A stretch of DNA of 64,000 nt from positions 2,133,224-2,197,223 of the forward strand of contig NC_022084.1 in NCBI RefSeq assembly GCF_000246985.2, read 5' to 3'. Shown here piece by piece: positions 4,181-12,506 of the stretch; the first letter of the stretch is position 1; each line of letters starts with the position of its first letter. The notes under the pieces are model-generated. The model ran no database searches, was not told the DNA's origin, and saw only the letters and a program-made list of their open reading frames with translations. The position numbers were made by a program, and so were the translations under genes. The DNA is from Thermococcus litoralis DSM 5473 (GTDB lineage Archaea; Methanobacteriota_B; Thermococci; Thermococcales; Thermococcaceae).

Positions 4181-4196
4181 AGAAAGGTTTATATAC
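4181..4196 (+). promoter_or_regulatory. BRE/TATA promoter for the PLP-DUF1611 operon
   Basis: AGAAAGG followed by TTTATATA is a strong BRE/TATA pair. It predicts a start near 4217 and a leader of about 95 bases. A second weaker TATA-like stretch (GTATAAAAA near 4253) lies closer to the gene. GGCTGT at 4138-4143 and ACAGCC at 4166-4171 form an inverted pair just upstream that could be an operator. Confidence 0.55.
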
Positions 4197-4311
4197 CCTT
4201 AACCAACTTTAGAATGGCTAATATCCATAATACAAGGGCTGAATAAGCGTAGAGTATAAAAATCCAAATTTGAGCCCTCAAATTCAAAAATAGGCGGATT
4301 TGGTGTGGGAA

Positions 4312-5214
4312 ATGGAGACAGAACTGAACTCTGATGAATCCCCCCTATTAAGGGCAATAAGCCTAGAGGAGAAATTGCGGATTTCGAAAATCTATCTAAA
4401 ACTCGAAGCGGCAAATCCAACAAAAACACACAAAGACAGGATCGCAAAGGCACACGTTAAACGGGCAAAAGCCCTCGGCTTTTCTGGGATTACTGTGGGA
4501 ACCTGTGGTAATTACGGGACATCTATAGCATATTTTGCAGAAAAAGAGGGACTAAGAGCCGTGATCTTTATTCCAAGGCACTATGAAAACTCAAGAGTGG
4601 AAGAAATGAAAAGGCATGGGGCAGAGGTTATATTTGTGGACGGGCCATATGAGTCAGCAGTCTTTATGAGCAAAACTTTTGCAGCAACTATGAATTATTA
4701 CGATGCAAACCCGGGATCGCAACCCATGATAGATTACGAAGCTTATTCCCTCATTTCAAAAGAAATTCTCAAAGAAATTGAGCCATATGCAGTCTTTGTT
4801 CCCGTAGGAAACGGTTCCACTCTAGTGGGGGTTTACTATGGTTTCAAAAAATATGGAAAGATGCCAAAAATCATTGGAGTTACAACAAGCTACGGAAATC
4901 AAATACTGAACGCATTTTATACCGGTAGTATGGAAGAAGTTAGAGACTTCGTTGAAACTCATCTTAATGAACCCCTTGTCTCATCGATATCCTTTGATCT
5001 TCAAAATGCCCTTGAAGCTGTAAAAGCATCGAAAGGGTATGTTTTTGGTTTTACCGATGATACAGCCTTAAAATATGCCAAGATTTTGGAAATGAGTGAG
5101 AGGATAAAGGTTCTCCCAGCCTCTGCCCTAACTTTAGCCGGGCTTGTTAAGTTTGTTAGAAAATTCGGTGTAAATAACGAGAATTTCGTCCTGCTCCTTA
5201 CTGGAGGGGTTTGA
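4312..5214 (+). CDS. PLP-dependent threonine synthase/dehydratase-like enzyme
   Basis: A fold-type II PLP enzyme of 300 aa. The Schiff-base Lys is in NPTKTHKDR, the substrate loop in GTCGNYGTS, the phosphate-binding glycines in VPVGNGST, and it ends LLLTGGV. It is much shorter than ThrC at 139-1290 and lacks the zinc-ribbon N-terminus, so it is a separate family; serine/threonine-type beta-elimination or replacement chemistry is expected but the substrate is unknown. ATG 4312 is chosen because GGTG lies six bases before it; upstream TTG and GTG codons lack an SD. It is first in a four-gene coupled operon with a DUF1611 protein, a MurL-like protein and a GNAT. Confidence 0.8.
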   Translation: METELNSDESPLLRAISLEEKLRISKIYLKLEAANPTKTHKDRIAKAHVKRAKALGFSGITVGTCGNYGTSIAYFAEKEGLRAVIFIPRHYENSRVEEMKRHGAEVIFVDGPYESAVFMSKTFAATMNYYDANPGSQPMIDYEAYSLISKEILKEIEPYAVFVPVGNGSTLVGVYYGFKKYGKMPKIIGVTTSYGNQILNAFYTGSMEEVRDFVETHLNEPLVSSISFDLQNALEAVKASKGYVFGFTDDTALKYAKILEMSERIKVLPASALTLAGLVKFVRKFGVNNENFVLLLTGGV

Positions 5215-5216
5215 AA

Positions 5217-6314
5217 ATGAAGAAAGCCTTGATTCTTGCGGAAGGAAGGTACAAAACGACCGATGGAAAGACTGCCCATGGGTTGGTTAGATACTCTAAG
5301 AGGTTTAAGATTGTGGGGGTAATAGATTCCACTTTGGCTGGAAAGGACGCTGGAGAAGTCTTGGATGGAATACCCCGCAACATTCCCATCTACGGAAGCT
5401 TCGAGGAAGCAGTTGCAGAGAATCCCGATGTCAAGTACCTCATAATTGGAGTGGCAACCCCTGGCGGATATTTGCCTCCGATCTACAGGGAGATTATAAA
5501 AAAGGCAATAAAAAGAAGGATGAACATAGTTAATGGTCTCCACAACTTTCTCAGCGACGATCCCGAATTTTCTCGCCTAGCCAAGAGGTACAAAGTTCAG
5601 CTGATAGATGTAAGGAAGATATACAGAGACCTAAAGATTCCTTTCACAGGAAAAATTGAGGAAGTCAAAGCCATAAAAGTTGCCGTACTGGGGACTGATG
5701 GTGCAATAGGCAAAAGAACCACCGCGATAATGCTTCATGAGGCATTCAAGCACTTTGGAAAGAAGAGCGTTTTTGTGGCAATGGGACAGACCGGGTGGAT
5801 GCAAGGGGCAAAATACTGCATAGTAATGGACTCAATAGTAAACGACTTCGTTGCAGGGGCTATTGAGGACGTTATCTGGAGAGCTTGGAAAGAAGAAAAT
5901 CCGGATGTTATTGTTACACACGGAGAGGGTTCTCTCCTCCACCCAGCTTATCCAGGTGGATTTGAGTTAATAGCCTCAGGTAGACCGGACTACATTGTGC
6001 TCCAACATGCCCCGGCAAGAAGATTTTTCGATGACTTCCCCCAGTACGAGATTCCACCCTTGGAGAGGTACATACAGCTGATTGAACTCCTCTCCGGTAA
6101 AAAACCGATAGCTATCACAATAAACTCTGAAAGACTCACGAAGGAAGAGGCTCTTCAAAAAGCAAGAGAGATAGAAGCAACTTACGGAATTCTAACGAGA
6201 GTACCTCTATATGAAGGTGTCGAAGACATAGTTAAGGCAATTCTTGAAGACGCAGAACGCCTAAAAGCAGTGACCCAGCAAGAGGTGGCTGCAAATGCCT
6301 CTCAAATGCTTTGA
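5217..6314 (+). CDS. DUF1611 family protein (DgcN-like)
   Basis: About 365 aa in two parts. The N-terminal Rossmann-like half contains GVIDSTLAGKDAGEVLDG and a nucleotide-fold strand VKYLIIGVATPGG. The C-terminal half has the P-loop-like GTDGAIGKRTT, typical of DUF1611, and GEGSLLHPAYPG. One DUF1611 member, DgcN, is described as a D-glutamate N-acetyltransferase; other members are uncharacterised. ATG 5217 has GGAGGGG upstream, two bases after the PLP-gene stop. The 3' end overlaps the next gene by 20 bases, indicating translational coupling. Confidence 0.82.
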   Translation: MKKALILAEGRYKTTDGKTAHGLVRYSKRFKIVGVIDSTLAGKDAGEVLDGIPRNIPIYGSFEEAVAENPDVKYLIIGVATPGGYLPPIYREIIKKAIKRRMNIVNGLHNFLSDDPEFSRLAKRYKVQLIDVRKIYRDLKIPFTGKIEEVKAIKVAVLGTDGAIGKRTTAIMLHEAFKHFGKKSVFVAMGQTGWMQGAKYCIVMDSIVNDFVAGAIEDVIWRAWKEENPDVIVTHGEGSLLHPAYPGGFELIASGRPDYIVLQHAPARRFFDDFPQYEIPPLERYIQLIELLSGKKPIAITINSERLTKEEALQKAREIEATYGILTRVPLYEGVEDIVKAILEDAERLKAVTQQEVAANASQML

Positions 6315-7728
6315 TTACATATCCATTGAAAAGCCAAAGCTCTCTTCTCGGAGGATTTCCTCCGTTTATACAATTTCTATTGATGGAAATGAGGAAAAAT
6401 TTAGGCTCATTCACACCTACGAAGAAAAAATTCCCAGAAATGAAGTCTTCGCAAAGCTTATGGTCATAACTCCAGCGATAAACTACGCTCTCTTCACCCC
6501 AGAAATTTCCTTTAACTTTTCCCTTGATCCAAGAGACCTGCAGTTCTTCAAGGATATGATGGAGCTTACTGCAAATGATATCCTTGTGAACAGGATATAC
6601 AGGAGGACAGGATTTGTCAGGGAAGAGTTCATCCCCAAAGAGATAAAACCGCAGCCTTTAGCGGAGGTTGTCCCGGAAAGAGTCGAAGAGGAAGAGGCAG
6701 AACTCACTCCCGACTACAACAAATGCGCTGTAATGCTTAGTGGTGGAAAGGAGAGCCTTCTCACCTATGGGCTTATGAAGGAAATAGGGTGTGAAGTTTA
6801 TCCATTCTTCTTCAATGAGTCCGGCGGGCACTGGAAAGTCGCCCTAACAGCGTACAAGTGGTTCAAGGAGCAGGAGCCAAACACCAAGAAAGTGTGGAGC
6901 AACGTGGACAGGCTCTACACATTTATAGAAAAGCACATGAAGATACTCCAAAACGTTGGGAAGCCAAAGGCTGAGGTATATCCGATAAGGCTATTCTTCT
7001 TTGAGCATTACGTCTTCTCATTCCTGCCATTAATTGAAAAGTACAGCATAGGAAACGTTTTGTTGGGCAACGAATATGACGACCCGAGGGGGCTTACTTA
7101 TGAGTTCCATGGGATACCTCACTTTTATGCCGTCCTCGACCAGAGCCAGTTCTTCGACAAGTATATGACGAGATGGTTCGCCGAGAGGGGTTTAAATATA
7201 AGGCAGTGGTCTGCCGTAAGACCAATAACGGGACTTATCGTTGAGAGAATCCTCTACAACCGTTATCCGGAGCTCTTTAAACTCCAGAGGAGCTGTCACT
7301 CAGTTCATAAGGAAGGCGGAGATTATGTGCCCTGTGGCACGTGCTTCAAGTGCAACGGCATACAAACATTCTTGCTGGCTAATGGAATAGATCCCCAGCT
7401 AATTAAATACAAACCGCACCACATAGAGACGCTTCCAAAGAGGATAGCAGAAGGAAAAGTTAGACTTGACGAGGATGAACTCCTACACTCGCTCTATCTG
7501 ATAAAGCAGAGAAAACCCGATTTTCCCCTCAGCGGGGGGAGGAGAGACCACGTGGAGATGCTCCACTTCGATGACAGAAATTCCCTCTTCGACAACATCC
7601 CTCTGGAGTTCAGAGAGAGGATATACTCAATATTCGAGCAGTATACAAGGGGTTATGCCTACCTAAAGGAAGGCAAATGGGTTGAAATAACAAGGGAGGA
7701 GGCGCTCCATGGAGTACACGATAGTTGA
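6295..7728 (+). CDS. PP-loop ATPase-like protein resembling MurL peptide epimerase
   Basis: 477 aa. A beta-rich N-terminus is followed by the PP-loop-like SGGKES near residue 150, then GNEYDD, then WSAVRPITGLIVERIL, then a Cys cluster SCHS...CGTCFKCNGIQTF. From memory these occur in the same order as in bacterial MurL (UDP-MurNAc-L-Ala-L-Glu epimerase), which uses ATP to epimerise a terminal glutamate. Thermococcales have no murein, so a different substrate is expected. GAGGTGG lies before ATG 6295. The gene overlaps DUF1611 upstream and the GNAT gene downstream by 20 bases each. The epimerase role is inference. Confidence 0.65.
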   Translation: MPLKCFDYISIEKPKLSSRRISSVYTISIDGNEEKFRLIHTYEEKIPRNEVFAKLMVITPAINYALFTPEISFNFSLDPRDLQFFKDMMELTANDILVNRIYRRTGFVREEFIPKEIKPQPLAEVVPERVEEEEAELTPDYNKCAVMLSGGKESLLTYGLMKEIGCEVYPFFFNESGGHWKVALTAYKWFKEQEPNTKKVWSNVDRLYTFIEKHMKILQNVGKPKAEVYPIRLFFFEHYVFSFLPLIEKYSIGNVLLGNEYDDPRGLTYEFHGIPHFYAVLDQSQFFDKYMTRWFAERGLNIRQWSAVRPITGLIVERILYNRYPELFKLQRSCHSVHKEGGDYVPCGTCFKCNGIQTFLLANGIDPQLIKYKPHHIETLPKRIAEGKVRLDEDELLHSLYLIKQRKPDFPLSGGRRDHVEMLHFDDRNSLFDNIPLEFRERIYSIFEQYTRGYAYLKEGKWVEITREEALHGVHDS

Positions 7729-8173
7729 TGGGGAGAGATACCTGGAAGAGATCAAAAAGCTTGACAGGGAAATAAGCTACTCATTCGTTCGCTTTTCCAT
7801 TCCCTATGAGGACTTCGCAAAGAGGCACGAAGAACTCTTTAGGGAACTTCTTTCACATGGAGAGCACAAGTTCTTCGCAGCCCTCGATGAGAAAGGAAAG
7901 CTACTGGGCCATGTCTGGGTTTGTTTGACCCTTGATACTGTGGATTACGTTAAAATAGCCTATATCTACGACATTGAAGTTATTAAAAAGGCAAGAGGGC
8001 TTGGAATCGGTTCAGCCCTTTTAAGAAGAGCTGAAGCATGGGCAAGAGAGAAGGGAGCAAAGAAAGTTGTACTTAGGGTGGAAGTTGATAACCCTGCAGT
8101 AAAATGGTACGAAGAACGAGGGTATCAAGCAAGAGCACTTATAATGGAGAAATTGTTAGATGTCAAAAATTAA
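7709..8173 (+). CDS. GNAT family N-acetyltransferase
   Basis: 154 aa. The acetyl-CoA loop motif is ARGLGIGSALL, followed by the typical RVEVDNPAVKWYEERGYQ C-terminal motif. Spacing and domain length fit RimI-type small GNATs, but the substrate is unknown. It is the last gene of the PLP-DUF1611-MurL-like operon, overlapping the preceding gene by 20 bases. Its 3' end overlaps the convergent nitrilase gene by 18 bases. An acetylation step in the operon's pathway is a reasonable inference. Confidence 0.85.
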   Translation: MEYTIVDGERYLEEIKKLDREISYSFVRFSIPYEDFAKRHEELFRELLSHGEHKFFAALDEKGKLLGHVWVCLTLDTVDYVKIAYIYDIEVIKKARGLGIGSALLRRAEAWAREKGAKKVVLRVEVDNPAVKWYEERGYQARALIMEKLLDVKN

Positions 8174-8830
8174 GAGCTTATCACCGCTACTTTTCCTCAA
8201 GAGATTTCCGCTCTCATCAAACACCCAAGCTCCACCTGGAGGGTAACTGTTAACGATAAAAGTCTTAACGCTGAGGAGTTTAACTCTTTCGGACATTGCC
8301 TTAAGGTCTTCTTCGCTTATCTTTCCGCTCTCGGGTGAATATTCCATAGGCACAAACAGAAAATCGGGCTTTTTCTTCCTTATCCACTTCGCTATGCGCT
8401 TGTTGTAAAGATCGCCACAGATGATTATTGCAACCTTACCGAATTCAGTCTTAGCAGTCTTCACTGTATTGCCCGTACAGAACTTCATTGGTTCCTGAAA
8501 CTTGCGGTGCCTAAGGATCACTTCTCCTTCACGGTTTATCAGGAGAGCGGAGTTATAGACACAGCTCTTATACGGTTCCAAGAGCCCAAAGATTACATAC
8601 ACGGCGTTATTCTTCGCAAGAGTGCTCACTCTCTTAACAATTTCATCATATAGCTTTGCTCCACTGAAGTCCCACTCCCTAAAGCCCGTGAGGCAGTACT
8701 CCGGGAAAACTATAAAATCGGGACTATATTGTAGTGCTTCTTTGAATCGTCTCTCAAACTCCTTCCAGTTAGTCCCAAAGTTTCCATCCTCAACGCGCAT
8801 CGGGATTAGAGCAACTTTCACCTTAAACAC
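8156..8830 (-). CDS. Carbon-nitrogen hydrolase (nitrilase superfamily)
   Basis: 224 aa, slightly short for the family. The Glu-Lys-Cys triad is visible as FPEYCLTG, HRKFQEP and IICGDLYNK. The substrate may be an amide or N-carbamoyl compound. The first strand VKVALIPMRV is needed for the fold, so the start must be GTG 8830 or GTG 8821; neither has a clear SD. A TATA-like stretch near 8845-8855 would suit a leaderless transcript. It faces the GNAT gene and overlaps it by 18 bases, so it may or may not belong functionally to that operon. Confidence 0.82.
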   Translation of the reverse strand: MFKVKVALIPMRVEDGNFGTNWKEFERRFKEALQYSPDFIVFPEYCLTGFREWDFSGAKLYDEIVKRVSTLAKNNAVYVIFGLLEPYKSCVYNSALLINREGEVILRHRKFQEPMKFCTGNTVKTAKTEFGKVAIIICGDLYNKRIAKWIRKKKPDFLFVPMEYSPESGKISEEDLKAMSERVKLLSVKTFIVNSYPPGGAWVFDESGNLLRKSSGDKLLIFDI

Positions 8831-10918: not shown

Positions 10919-11117
10919 TAATTTATTCAGATAATCAAAAAAGTATCAACATTTTGGTTACTTTCTGGGATTTTTATGCTTTAAATTCCTTCTATTTCAA
11001 AAATAGGACTTTCTAACACTTACTTTTTTTTTAAAATAAATTTGATACCTTAAAGTCAAAAATTTTAAATATCTTACAGATTATATAAAATTATGAAAAC
11101 TTCATATGGTGATGCCA
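10919..11117. other. AT-rich intergenic stretch with promoter for the protease gene
   Basis: About 200 bases, very AT-rich, with long A and T runs. TTTTAAATATC near 11068 and TTATATAAAA near 11082 are TATA candidates for the protease gene. A T8 run near 11026-11033 could terminate transcription from the methyltransferase frame. No gene was seen. Confidence 0.4.
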
Positions 11118-12506
11118 ATGCGATGGAAACTACTGGGTATTTTGTTGCTTGGCTTGTTGATTTTGGGTTCTTTTGGGAGTGCAAATATTGTTAAGAACGG
11201 GAATGACAAGGCTTGCCAGCTTGTGAGTTACTGGGTTTTTGAGAATGGACAGTGGGTTCAGAAGAGCGAGCCCAGAGTTTGGTGGTACTGCCAAGAGCCC
11301 GAGAGAGTCAAGGGTTTTATGAGTTTTGCATTCAAAGAAATGCCCTATGGTTTATTCAAGAAACCGGATCCAATGACATTGCACCAAGCTGCAAGGGATT
11401 TAATAAATTTGGTGGGAGTTGATGAGCCTCGCGGGAAATTCTCCACAAGCTTGCCATCCTACGGGGGAATGTTTATCAACGAGGAAAAAGGATTAATCTT
11501 CGTGTATGTGAGGGATGAGAAAGATAAGGCGGAACTCAAACAGGCATTAGGAAAATACAGAGGAAAAGTGAACGTGGTGTTTTTAAAAGGCAAATACAGC
11601 TTTGAACAGTTAGTAAAATGGAAACACTCGATGGAAAAACTGGATGAAAGAATCATTGAACAGCTCGGAATTACAATGCTCGATGTCGACGAAGCCCACA
11701 ACTCTCTAACCATTGGTTTGGAAGAAATAACACCGGAGAAACTGAAGCTACTTGAAAATAGATTAGAGAAGCTTGGAATACCAAAAGAAGCAGTAAGGGT
11801 TGAGAGGAGAGAATACATGAAACTACTGGCTGATTATCACAGAGCACGACCGTTAGTGGGAGGTGTTATGATAAGGAGAGAAGATGCTCCAGACTCTTGG
11901 GGAACCTTAGGTTATATTGGATTCATTGGATCAACCCCATATTTTGTTACAGCAGGGCATCTTGGGATCTGGGGTACCAGTGGTCAGAGGATTTATCAAC
12001 CCACAGTGGATGAAGAGAATTACGTGGGAACAGTTACGTACAATCCGTATTTCCGGGATGATGAGTCAATTCCCTATAGATACAGCGACTCAATGCTTGT
12101 CAAAGCAGATGTTGCAGGCTCAACGAAAATATATAATCCATCACCATATACAAGCTCGGATTATATTGTTATAGGTAAAAGATATTCCGCAGATCAAATT
12201 GTTGGCGAAACTGTTATCAAAGTGGGCGCAACAACAGGAAAAACTACAGGTGAGATTACAAATAAATGTGTAACTTCATTCCTATCCCCAAAAGAGGACT
12301 ACTATCCGGATTTAGTTGCATTGTACTGTCAGATGGAGACGAACTTGGAAAGTGCCGGAGGGGATAGTGGTGCTCCGGTATTCAAGTCATACGGCACTTT
12401 TGTCGAACTTTATGGCATTCTCTGGGGAGGTACTAGCACTGTTTCAGCCTATAGCCCAATAGACGGAATTGAAGAGGACTTAGGAGTAACTCTCGACGTA
12501 AATTGA
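11118..12506 (+). CDS. Secreted chymotrypsin-like (S1 family) serine protease with propeptide
   Basis: About 462 aa. A signal peptide (WKLLGILLLGLLILGSFGSA) is followed by a propeptide-like region of about 220 aa with mixed alpha/beta sequence. The catalytic domain has FVTAGHLG (His), YRYSDSMLVKAD (Asp) and SAGGDSGAPVF (Ser). The arrangement resembles alpha-lytic-protease-like enzymes that need the propeptide for folding. ATG 11118 is preferred because GGTGAT lies just upstream. It is followed 18 bases later by a small secreted protein, and a relic of a second copy of its C-terminus lies at 14680-14843. Confidence 0.85.
   Translation: MRWKLLGILLLGLLILGSFGSANIVKNGNDKACQLVSYWVFENGQWVQKSEPRVWWYCQEPERVKGFMSFAFKEMPYGLFKKPDPMTLHQAARDLINLVGVDEPRGKFSTSLPSYGGMFINEEKGLIFVYVRDEKDKAELKQALGKYRGKVNVVFLKGKYSFEQLVKWKHSMEKLDERIIEQLGITMLDVDEAHNSLTIGLEEITPEKLKLLENRLEKLGIPKEAVRVERREYMKLLADYHRARPLVGGVMIRREDAPDSWGTLGYIGFIGSTPYFVTAGHLGIWGTSGQRIYQPTVDEENYVGTVTYNPYFRDDESIPYRYSDSMLVKADVAGSTKIYNPSPYTSSDYIVIGKRYSADQIVGETVIKVGATTGKTTGEITNKCVTSFLSPKEDYYPDLVALYCQMETNLESAGGDSGAPVFKSYGTFVELYGILWGGTSTVSAYSPIDGIEEDLGVTLDVN

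Follow-up and report, generated by a model that had tools for sequence, protein, structure and literature searches.

A candidate stereo-inversion operon in Thermococcus litoralis that joins a MurL-like PP-loop protein to a DUF1611 protein

The window analysed here is a stretch of 64,000 nucleotides from Thermococcus litoralis DSM 5473 (contig NC_022084.1, positions 2,133,224 to 2,197,223 of the forward strand), and it contains an operon of four genes encoding a pyridoxal phosphate (PLP)-dependent enzyme, a DUF1611 protein, a PP-loop ATP-pyrophosphatase resembling the bacterial epimerase MurL, and a GNAT acetyltransferase (Table 1). The genome with this operon is 2.2 Mb in one contig, and its nearest named relative is a Thermococcales metagenome-assembled genome (MAG). 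By a slight balance of probability, the operon encodes a module that uses ATP to invert the stereocentre of a small amino acid or dipeptide, N-blocked and probably acidic. This reading draws on the linkage of the genes, on the relation of the PP-loop protein to MurL and its PP-loop and four-cysteine (Cys4) sites, on the change from one epimerase type to another next to DUF1611, and on the finding that the genome lacks Mur ligases. Among epimerases, MurL is unusual in consuming ATP, and it is known from the synthesis of bacterial peptidoglycan. That archaea with no murein have relatives of it, inherited together with a DgcN-like protein, points to a D-amino-acid pathway in archaea, and a protein family lacking a Pfam entry thereby gains a concrete, assayable candidate function. 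Heat-loving archaea with this gene set probably have a way of dealing with mirror-image amino acids that has yet to be described. The literature search, whose coverage did not extend to the primary DgcN paper and most subscription journals, returned no account of the four-gene set.

Operon structure and distribution among archaea

The open reading frames and junctions are as an earlier note, made from the sequence alone, had given them: the PLP and DUF1611 genes are separated by a 2-base gap, and both the DUF1611/PP-loop and the PP-loop/GNAT junctions are 20-base overlaps. The four genes are real and under purifying selection, since dN/dS against the related locus L008 is 0.05 for each of the DUF1611, PP-loop and GNAT genes and 0.10 for the available part of the PLP gene. 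The putative promoter element upstream, GAAAGGTTTATATA, has a single exact match in the window and, with up to two mismatches allowed, three matches against 0.85 expected.

Table 1. Features of the operon and its surroundings, in window coordinates
Feature	Position	Strand	Remarks
BRE/TATA-like archaeal promoter-like element GAAAGGTTTATATA, putative	4182..4195	+	5' of operon
PLP fold-type II enzyme, threonine-synthase-like, PRK06381 family	4300..5214	+	TTG start; in-frame alternative ATG at 4312
DUF1611 protein (Rossmann N-domain + P-loop domain), clade B, DgcN-related	5217..6314	+	
PP-loop ATP-pyrophosphatase, MurL-like, 477 aa	6295..7728	+	no Pfam family
PP-loop motif SGGKES, residues 149-154	6739..6756	+	S149, G151 and S154 invariant in 23 homologues, including distant ones
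Cys4 motif C-x12-CGxCxKC, residues 334-353, probable zinc site	7294..7353	+	C334, C347, C350 and C353 invariant
GNAT acetyltransferase	7709..8173	+	PF00583, 67 bits
Nitrilase-family amidohydrolase	8156..8830	-	convergent with GNAT gene; PF00795, 65.5 bits

Co-conservation across Archaea, which the earlier note had proposed to check, was found: the four-gene order recurs in Thermococcaceae and in two loci from Nitrososphaerota MAGs (L003 and L004), and the trio of PLP, DUF1611 and PP-loop genes recurs across Thermoproteota. Among 94 Thermococcaceae genomes, the PP-loop protein has matches in 28, about 25 of them substantial, and the order PLP–DUF1611–PP-loop–GNAT is kept in the intact loci examined (the PLP gene of L011 is internally deleted, L011:81-401, and L016 is truncated where its contig ends). 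Of the 94 genomes, 24 encode DUF1611, in each case next to the PP-loop gene, so that a MurL-like sequence is present in 24/24 genomes with DUF1611. The operon is undergoing loss in some lineages of the family, because the MurL-like or DUF1611 genes of G027 and G029 are broken by stops or frameshifts, and nothing but stop-containing fragments is left in G010 and G011. In the same phylum outside Thermococcaceae, a profile search gave no convincing matches to the PP-loop protein. In the two MAGs the same four genes stand in the same order at 39-56% identity. The PP-loop protein was found in 18 of 398 sampled genomes of Thermoproteota, the phylum of one of these MAGs, and the trio is contiguous in 15 of the 18 (L003, L055, L056, L058-L062, L064, L065 and L067-L071), while DUF1611 is encoded in all 18. 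The link between DUF1611 and the PP-loop protein is not merely positional, because in G352, G358 and G396 both are present with the PP-loop and GNAT genes on a different contig from DUF1611; there, PLP adjoins DUF1611 in G358 and G396, and in G352 the contig stops at that place. Fisher's test on the co-occurrence of DUF1611 and the MurL-like gene gave p values of 7e-23 and 2e-21, the strength of which is overstated as shared ancestry is ignored. The GNAT gene keeps its place in Thermococcaceae loci and in L003, L004 and L055, and it adjoins the MurL-like gene in L057, L063 and L066. No viral relatives were found, and a plasmid search with the window protein as query gave no matches.

Relation of the PP-loop protein to MurL and QueC

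The only relevant curated family matched by the PP-loop protein family is MurL. The NCBIfam MurL model is matched by 15/23 family members, with a best E value of 1.4e-9 and all scores below the 700-bit cut-off, and none of the 23 matches any QueC, NAD-synthase or thiolation/thiolase model. Annotated MurL was reached through bridging homologues, that is the distant archaeal sequences of L072-L074, one of which retrieved an annotated MurL of Xanthomonas sacchari (E 7e-3). The archaeal profile including these homologues aligns with a four-sequence MurL profile at E 3e-11 over 196 columns. When the family profile was compared with single sequences, X. sacchari MurL (E 5.8e-10, 196 columns) outscored, bridging homologues aside, all QueC sequences and all PP-loop proteins of this genome; in profile-to-profile comparison, QueC is nearly as close (2.5e-10, using a deeper QueC alignment). 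When the archaeal and bridging sequences are aligned with MurL, a shared core is present: the PP-loop, an S-x-x-R-P...V-x-R stretch preceding the Cys4 motif, and SC...CxxCxxC, the Cys4 arrangement being the same in MurL. In full, the PP-loop, NE, Q-x-S, S-x-x-R-P...V-x-R and SC...CGxCxKC follow in the same order in proteins of 450-480 aa. E260, Q283, S306 and R323 are candidates for active-site residues. The differences from MurL of Xanthomonas are an identity of about 15-20%, the low model scores, the other operon partners, and the lack in this genome of the MurD2 or Mur ligase partner. The MurL resemblance proposed by the earlier note thus stands as to the family model, but the scores lie far under its cut-off and the fold is equally QueC- and QatC-like. 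By these comparisons of sequence and fold, the archaeal protein stands on its own branch of a MurL/QueC-like group, closest to MurL in sequence and not MurL proper. MurL itself converts ATP to AMP and inverts only from L to D, and adenylation of the alpha-carboxylate was proposed by its authors (PMC8788868). No literature pairing MurL with QueC was found, and papers naming MurL together with archaea were, going by title and abstract, on other topics.

An identity as a tRNA-thiolation or NAD-synthase enzyme, which the earlier note had named as grounds for giving up the MurL relation, was rejected: the PP-loop protein is not closer to these enzymes, and the resemblance of other T. litoralis PP-loop proteins to it is mostly confined to the PP-loop region. 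The second debatable identity is QueC. The AlphaFold2 model (pLDDT 87.5) has its best PDB matches in QatC (1.5e-5, with an alignment spanning most of the protein's length) and then QueC, with Cap9 also among the best folds; fold, PP-loop and a four-Cys site are common to all of these. QueC is characterised by the substrate motifs YxQxHxxE and VPxRN (PMC13329287) and by the zinc motif C(x)8CxxCxxC. The first two are absent from the family alignment, and the Cys spacing of the window protein is x12, not x8. A canonical QueC is encoded elsewhere in the T. litoralis genome, and QueC identity was rejected on motifs and score despite the agreeing fold.

More distant homologues were found in other settings. 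In the thermoproteotal locus L072 (L072:6189-10216), an operon-type PLP gene and a distant MurL-like gene are followed by a full D-Ala-D-Ala-ligase (Ddl)-like ATP-grasp fused to a GNAT domain, and this fusion stands in place of DUF1611. In L073:836-5106 and L074:7448-11694, a conserved cluster joins another MurL-like branch to a radical-SAM protein and to the ATPase and ABC-2 permease of an ABC transporter. On an Exiguobacterium plasmid (L094:1320-6249), a PLP enzyme, a remote QueC/MurL-like PP-loop protein and a nonribosomal peptide synthetase (NRPS) stand in a row. Pseudonocardia plasmids (L093:4623-6032, L095:3968-5368 and L096:3968-5362) carry MurL-like genes whose products are 34-37% identical to X. 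sacchari MurL, with no MurD-like gene annotated near them.

As a serious rival reading, though one that we consider rather unlikely, the PP-loop protein may be an amide or peptide synthetase of the QueC/Cap9 type, in which an adenylated carboxylate is attacked by ammonia or an amine. Together with GNAT and DUF1611, such an enzyme would yield an acetylated amino-acid amide or dipeptide, by a logic like that of the N-acetylglutaminylglutamine amide (NAGGN) solutes, and this extension appears equally unlikely. QueC and Cap9 do form amides from activated carboxylates with the same fold as these best structural matches; the Ddl-like/GNAT fusion of L072 beside PLP and a distant homologue, and the position of the remote Exiguobacterium protein between a PLP enzyme and an NRPS, also agree with a synthetase. 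However, the sequence is closer to MurL than to QueC, the QueC motifs and zinc-site spacing are missing, and DUF1611 is partnered elsewhere by epimerases, not ligases. A NAGGN synthetase identity of the GNATs was rejected, as the model matches one GNAT only, and weakly.

The DUF1611 protein and its epimerase-type neighbours

The DUF1611 protein (PF07755, 229 bits; PF17396, 110 bits) is a relative of the DgcN family, as the earlier note had held. It matches the NCBIfam DgcN model at 163.4 bits, below the cut-off of 480, its PDB relatives are 2g0t, 2obn and 7xrj, and it has in common with DgcN the P-loop GTDgaiGKRTT and the GQT motif, which occur on both sides of the DUF1611 tree. This tree separates an enolase-epimerase/DgcN side from a side with PLP/MurL-like and racemase partners (support 100/98); the DgcN and haloarchaeal rows are long-branched, so the exact placement of DgcN is unsure. 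Since the operon protein falls outside the DgcN/MR_MLE clade, acetylation of D-Glu, which the earlier note had carried over from DgcN, is an unsafe transfer. Literature naming DUF1611 was limited, in our search, to unrelated work.

The usual neighbours of DUF1611 elsewhere are racemases or epimerases of unrelated types: DgcA in Pantoea, and two dipeptide epimerases with a D-aminoacylase in Haladaptatus. In 14 Thermoproteota genomes that have DUF1611 and lack a full PP-loop gene, the neighbour is an enolase-superfamily epimerase in nine; of the other five, two have PLP–DUF1611 (G305 and G322) and three have no epimerase near by. The L-Ala-D/L-Glu (dipeptide) epimerases of the enolase superfamily occupy the same place beside DUF1611 in other archaea, although their fold is unrelated to that of the MurL-like protein and they work without ATP. 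In the T. litoralis genome, the single MR_MLE-type match is weak, of enolase length and probably enolase itself, and such a match is found in nearly every Thermococcaceae genome. DUF1611 marks an "epimerase slot", and its two clades follow the type of partner. Because of these unrelated racemases and epimerases beside DUF1611 elsewhere, the MurL-like gene seems to fill the epimerase place. The gene set can be read as a variant of the known DUF1611-plus-epimerase kind: as in DgcN-DgcA, a DUF1611 gene with the same motifs adjoins an epimerase-type gene, but the DUF1611 protein is of the other clade, the partner is of MurL type and not of the enolase superfamily, and PLP and GNAT genes are added. 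On Ruegeria and Aliiroseovarius plasmids (L173:7848-10219 and L174:7875-10192; marine alphaproteobacteria), DUF1611 adjoins an ornithine-racemase-like enzyme, with hypothetical genes upstream of the pair.

DgcN-DgcA is a catabolic route for D-Glu (PMC12363236, PMC10845958), and the archaeal module may likewise serve salvage, converting D-amino acids, whether D-Glu, D-Asp or D-residues from damaged peptides, to usable L-forms with the MurL-like enzyme replacing DgcA. This possibility, which we hold doubtful, overlaps with stereo-inversion as proposed above and differs in direction, so the likelihoods given for the two are not exclusive. The D-aminoacylase and dipeptide epimerases of Haladaptatus accord with it, and the patchy presence and decaying copies in Thermococcaceae fit a dispensable catabolic trait. 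In G352, G358, G396 and G322, Asparaginase_2 genes about 70% identical to each other adjoin the MurL-like gene or a fragment of it at a contig end; they would fit the handling of Asp or isoAsp, a substrate at which their position hints, and they also count in favour of the main reading. In the Asparaginase_2 loci (L057, L063, L066 and L053), DUF1611 lies elsewhere in the genome, with PLP where visible. Against salvage, no transporter or peptidase gene recurs beside the archaeal unit across lineages (few neighbours are annotated), MurL works from L to D only, and the operon DUF1611 lies outside the DgcN clade.

Proposed mechanism, the PLP enzyme and flanking genes

In the proposed stereo-inversion module, a free amino acid would be supplied or removed by the ThrC-like PLP enzyme, and its amino group would be blocked by the DUF1611 protein through acylation, as with DgcN. 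The MurL-like enzyme would then adenylate the alpha-carboxylate with ATP, by which the alpha-hydrogen would be acidified and the centre inverted; release of AMP and pyrophosphate would make the inversion one-way. The product or the substrate would be acetylated by the GNAT. Epimerase chemistry, N-acylation by DUF1611, an acidic substrate and the direction are all inferred. The L to D direction is weakly favoured, because MurL runs this way and L072 adds the Ddl-like ATP-grasp/GNAT fusion. Of the activation, epimerisation and acetylation of an acidic amino acid suggested by the earlier note, the epimerisation agrees with the racemases and epimerases usually encoded next to DUF1611, while the acidic substrate and the D-product stay conjectural.

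Several points weigh against this interpretation. The PP-loop protein of the window, taken alone, matches no curated family, and its N-terminal domain has no match to that of MurL above column-shuffled controls. Its fold is common to QueC and QatC, and QueC and Cap9 make amide bonds. The DUF1611 protein scores far below the DgcN cut-off and does not group with the DgcN clade, and it is awkward that a single blocking step should have two genes for acyl transfer, DUF1611 and GNAT. Mur ligases (PF08245) have no match in this genome, with 13/14 controls positive; this agrees with a host lacking murein, as the earlier note had assumed, and MurL's own substrate is therefore not expected there. It is a bolder proposal, and a rather improbable one at present, that archaea without murein make an undescribed acetylated metabolite containing a D-amino acid with a MurL-type ATP-driven epimerase, a ThrC-like PLP enzyme, DUF1611 and GNAT, with a Ddl-like enzyme added in one lineage.

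The PLP enzyme (PF00291, 178 bits) is like threonine synthase in being of fold type II and in passing NF004996 (PRK06381) with 425.5 bits against a cut-off of 266; the model is named threonine synthase, a name that is not the same as a tested function. An ordinary threonine- or serine-type amino acid metabolism, with unrelated genes sharing an operon, could be read from this match, but we consider it very improbable. The enzyme fails the ThrC model TIGR00260 (85.4 bits, cut-off 167.1), which a canonical, housekeeping ThrC encoded elsewhere in the genome passes with 349.6 bits. The operon PLP enzymes, that of L072 included, fall into a single clade (100/100) that leaves out this genome's paralogues, canonical ThrC among them, and the trio is co-inherited across archaeal phyla. 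The name "threonine synthase" is probably wrong for the operon enzyme, as the co-conservation suggests. At 142-2150 on the minus strand of the window, a second ThrC-like PLP gene overlaps the end of an agmatinase-family gene, and this pair is also found in L002.

The nitrilase-family gene, reported by the earlier note as converging on the operon's end, does converge on the GNAT gene but is not part of the conserved unit. It was found only in the closest relatives (L001, L002 and L005-L007), with a remnant in L008, and is absent from the other loci; as a fifth member of the operon it was rejected on this limited occurrence. Further downstream in the window, at 11106-12506 on the plus strand, an open reading frame begins in a signal-like manner and contains the stretch GDSGAPVF, which is characteristic of trypsin-like proteases.

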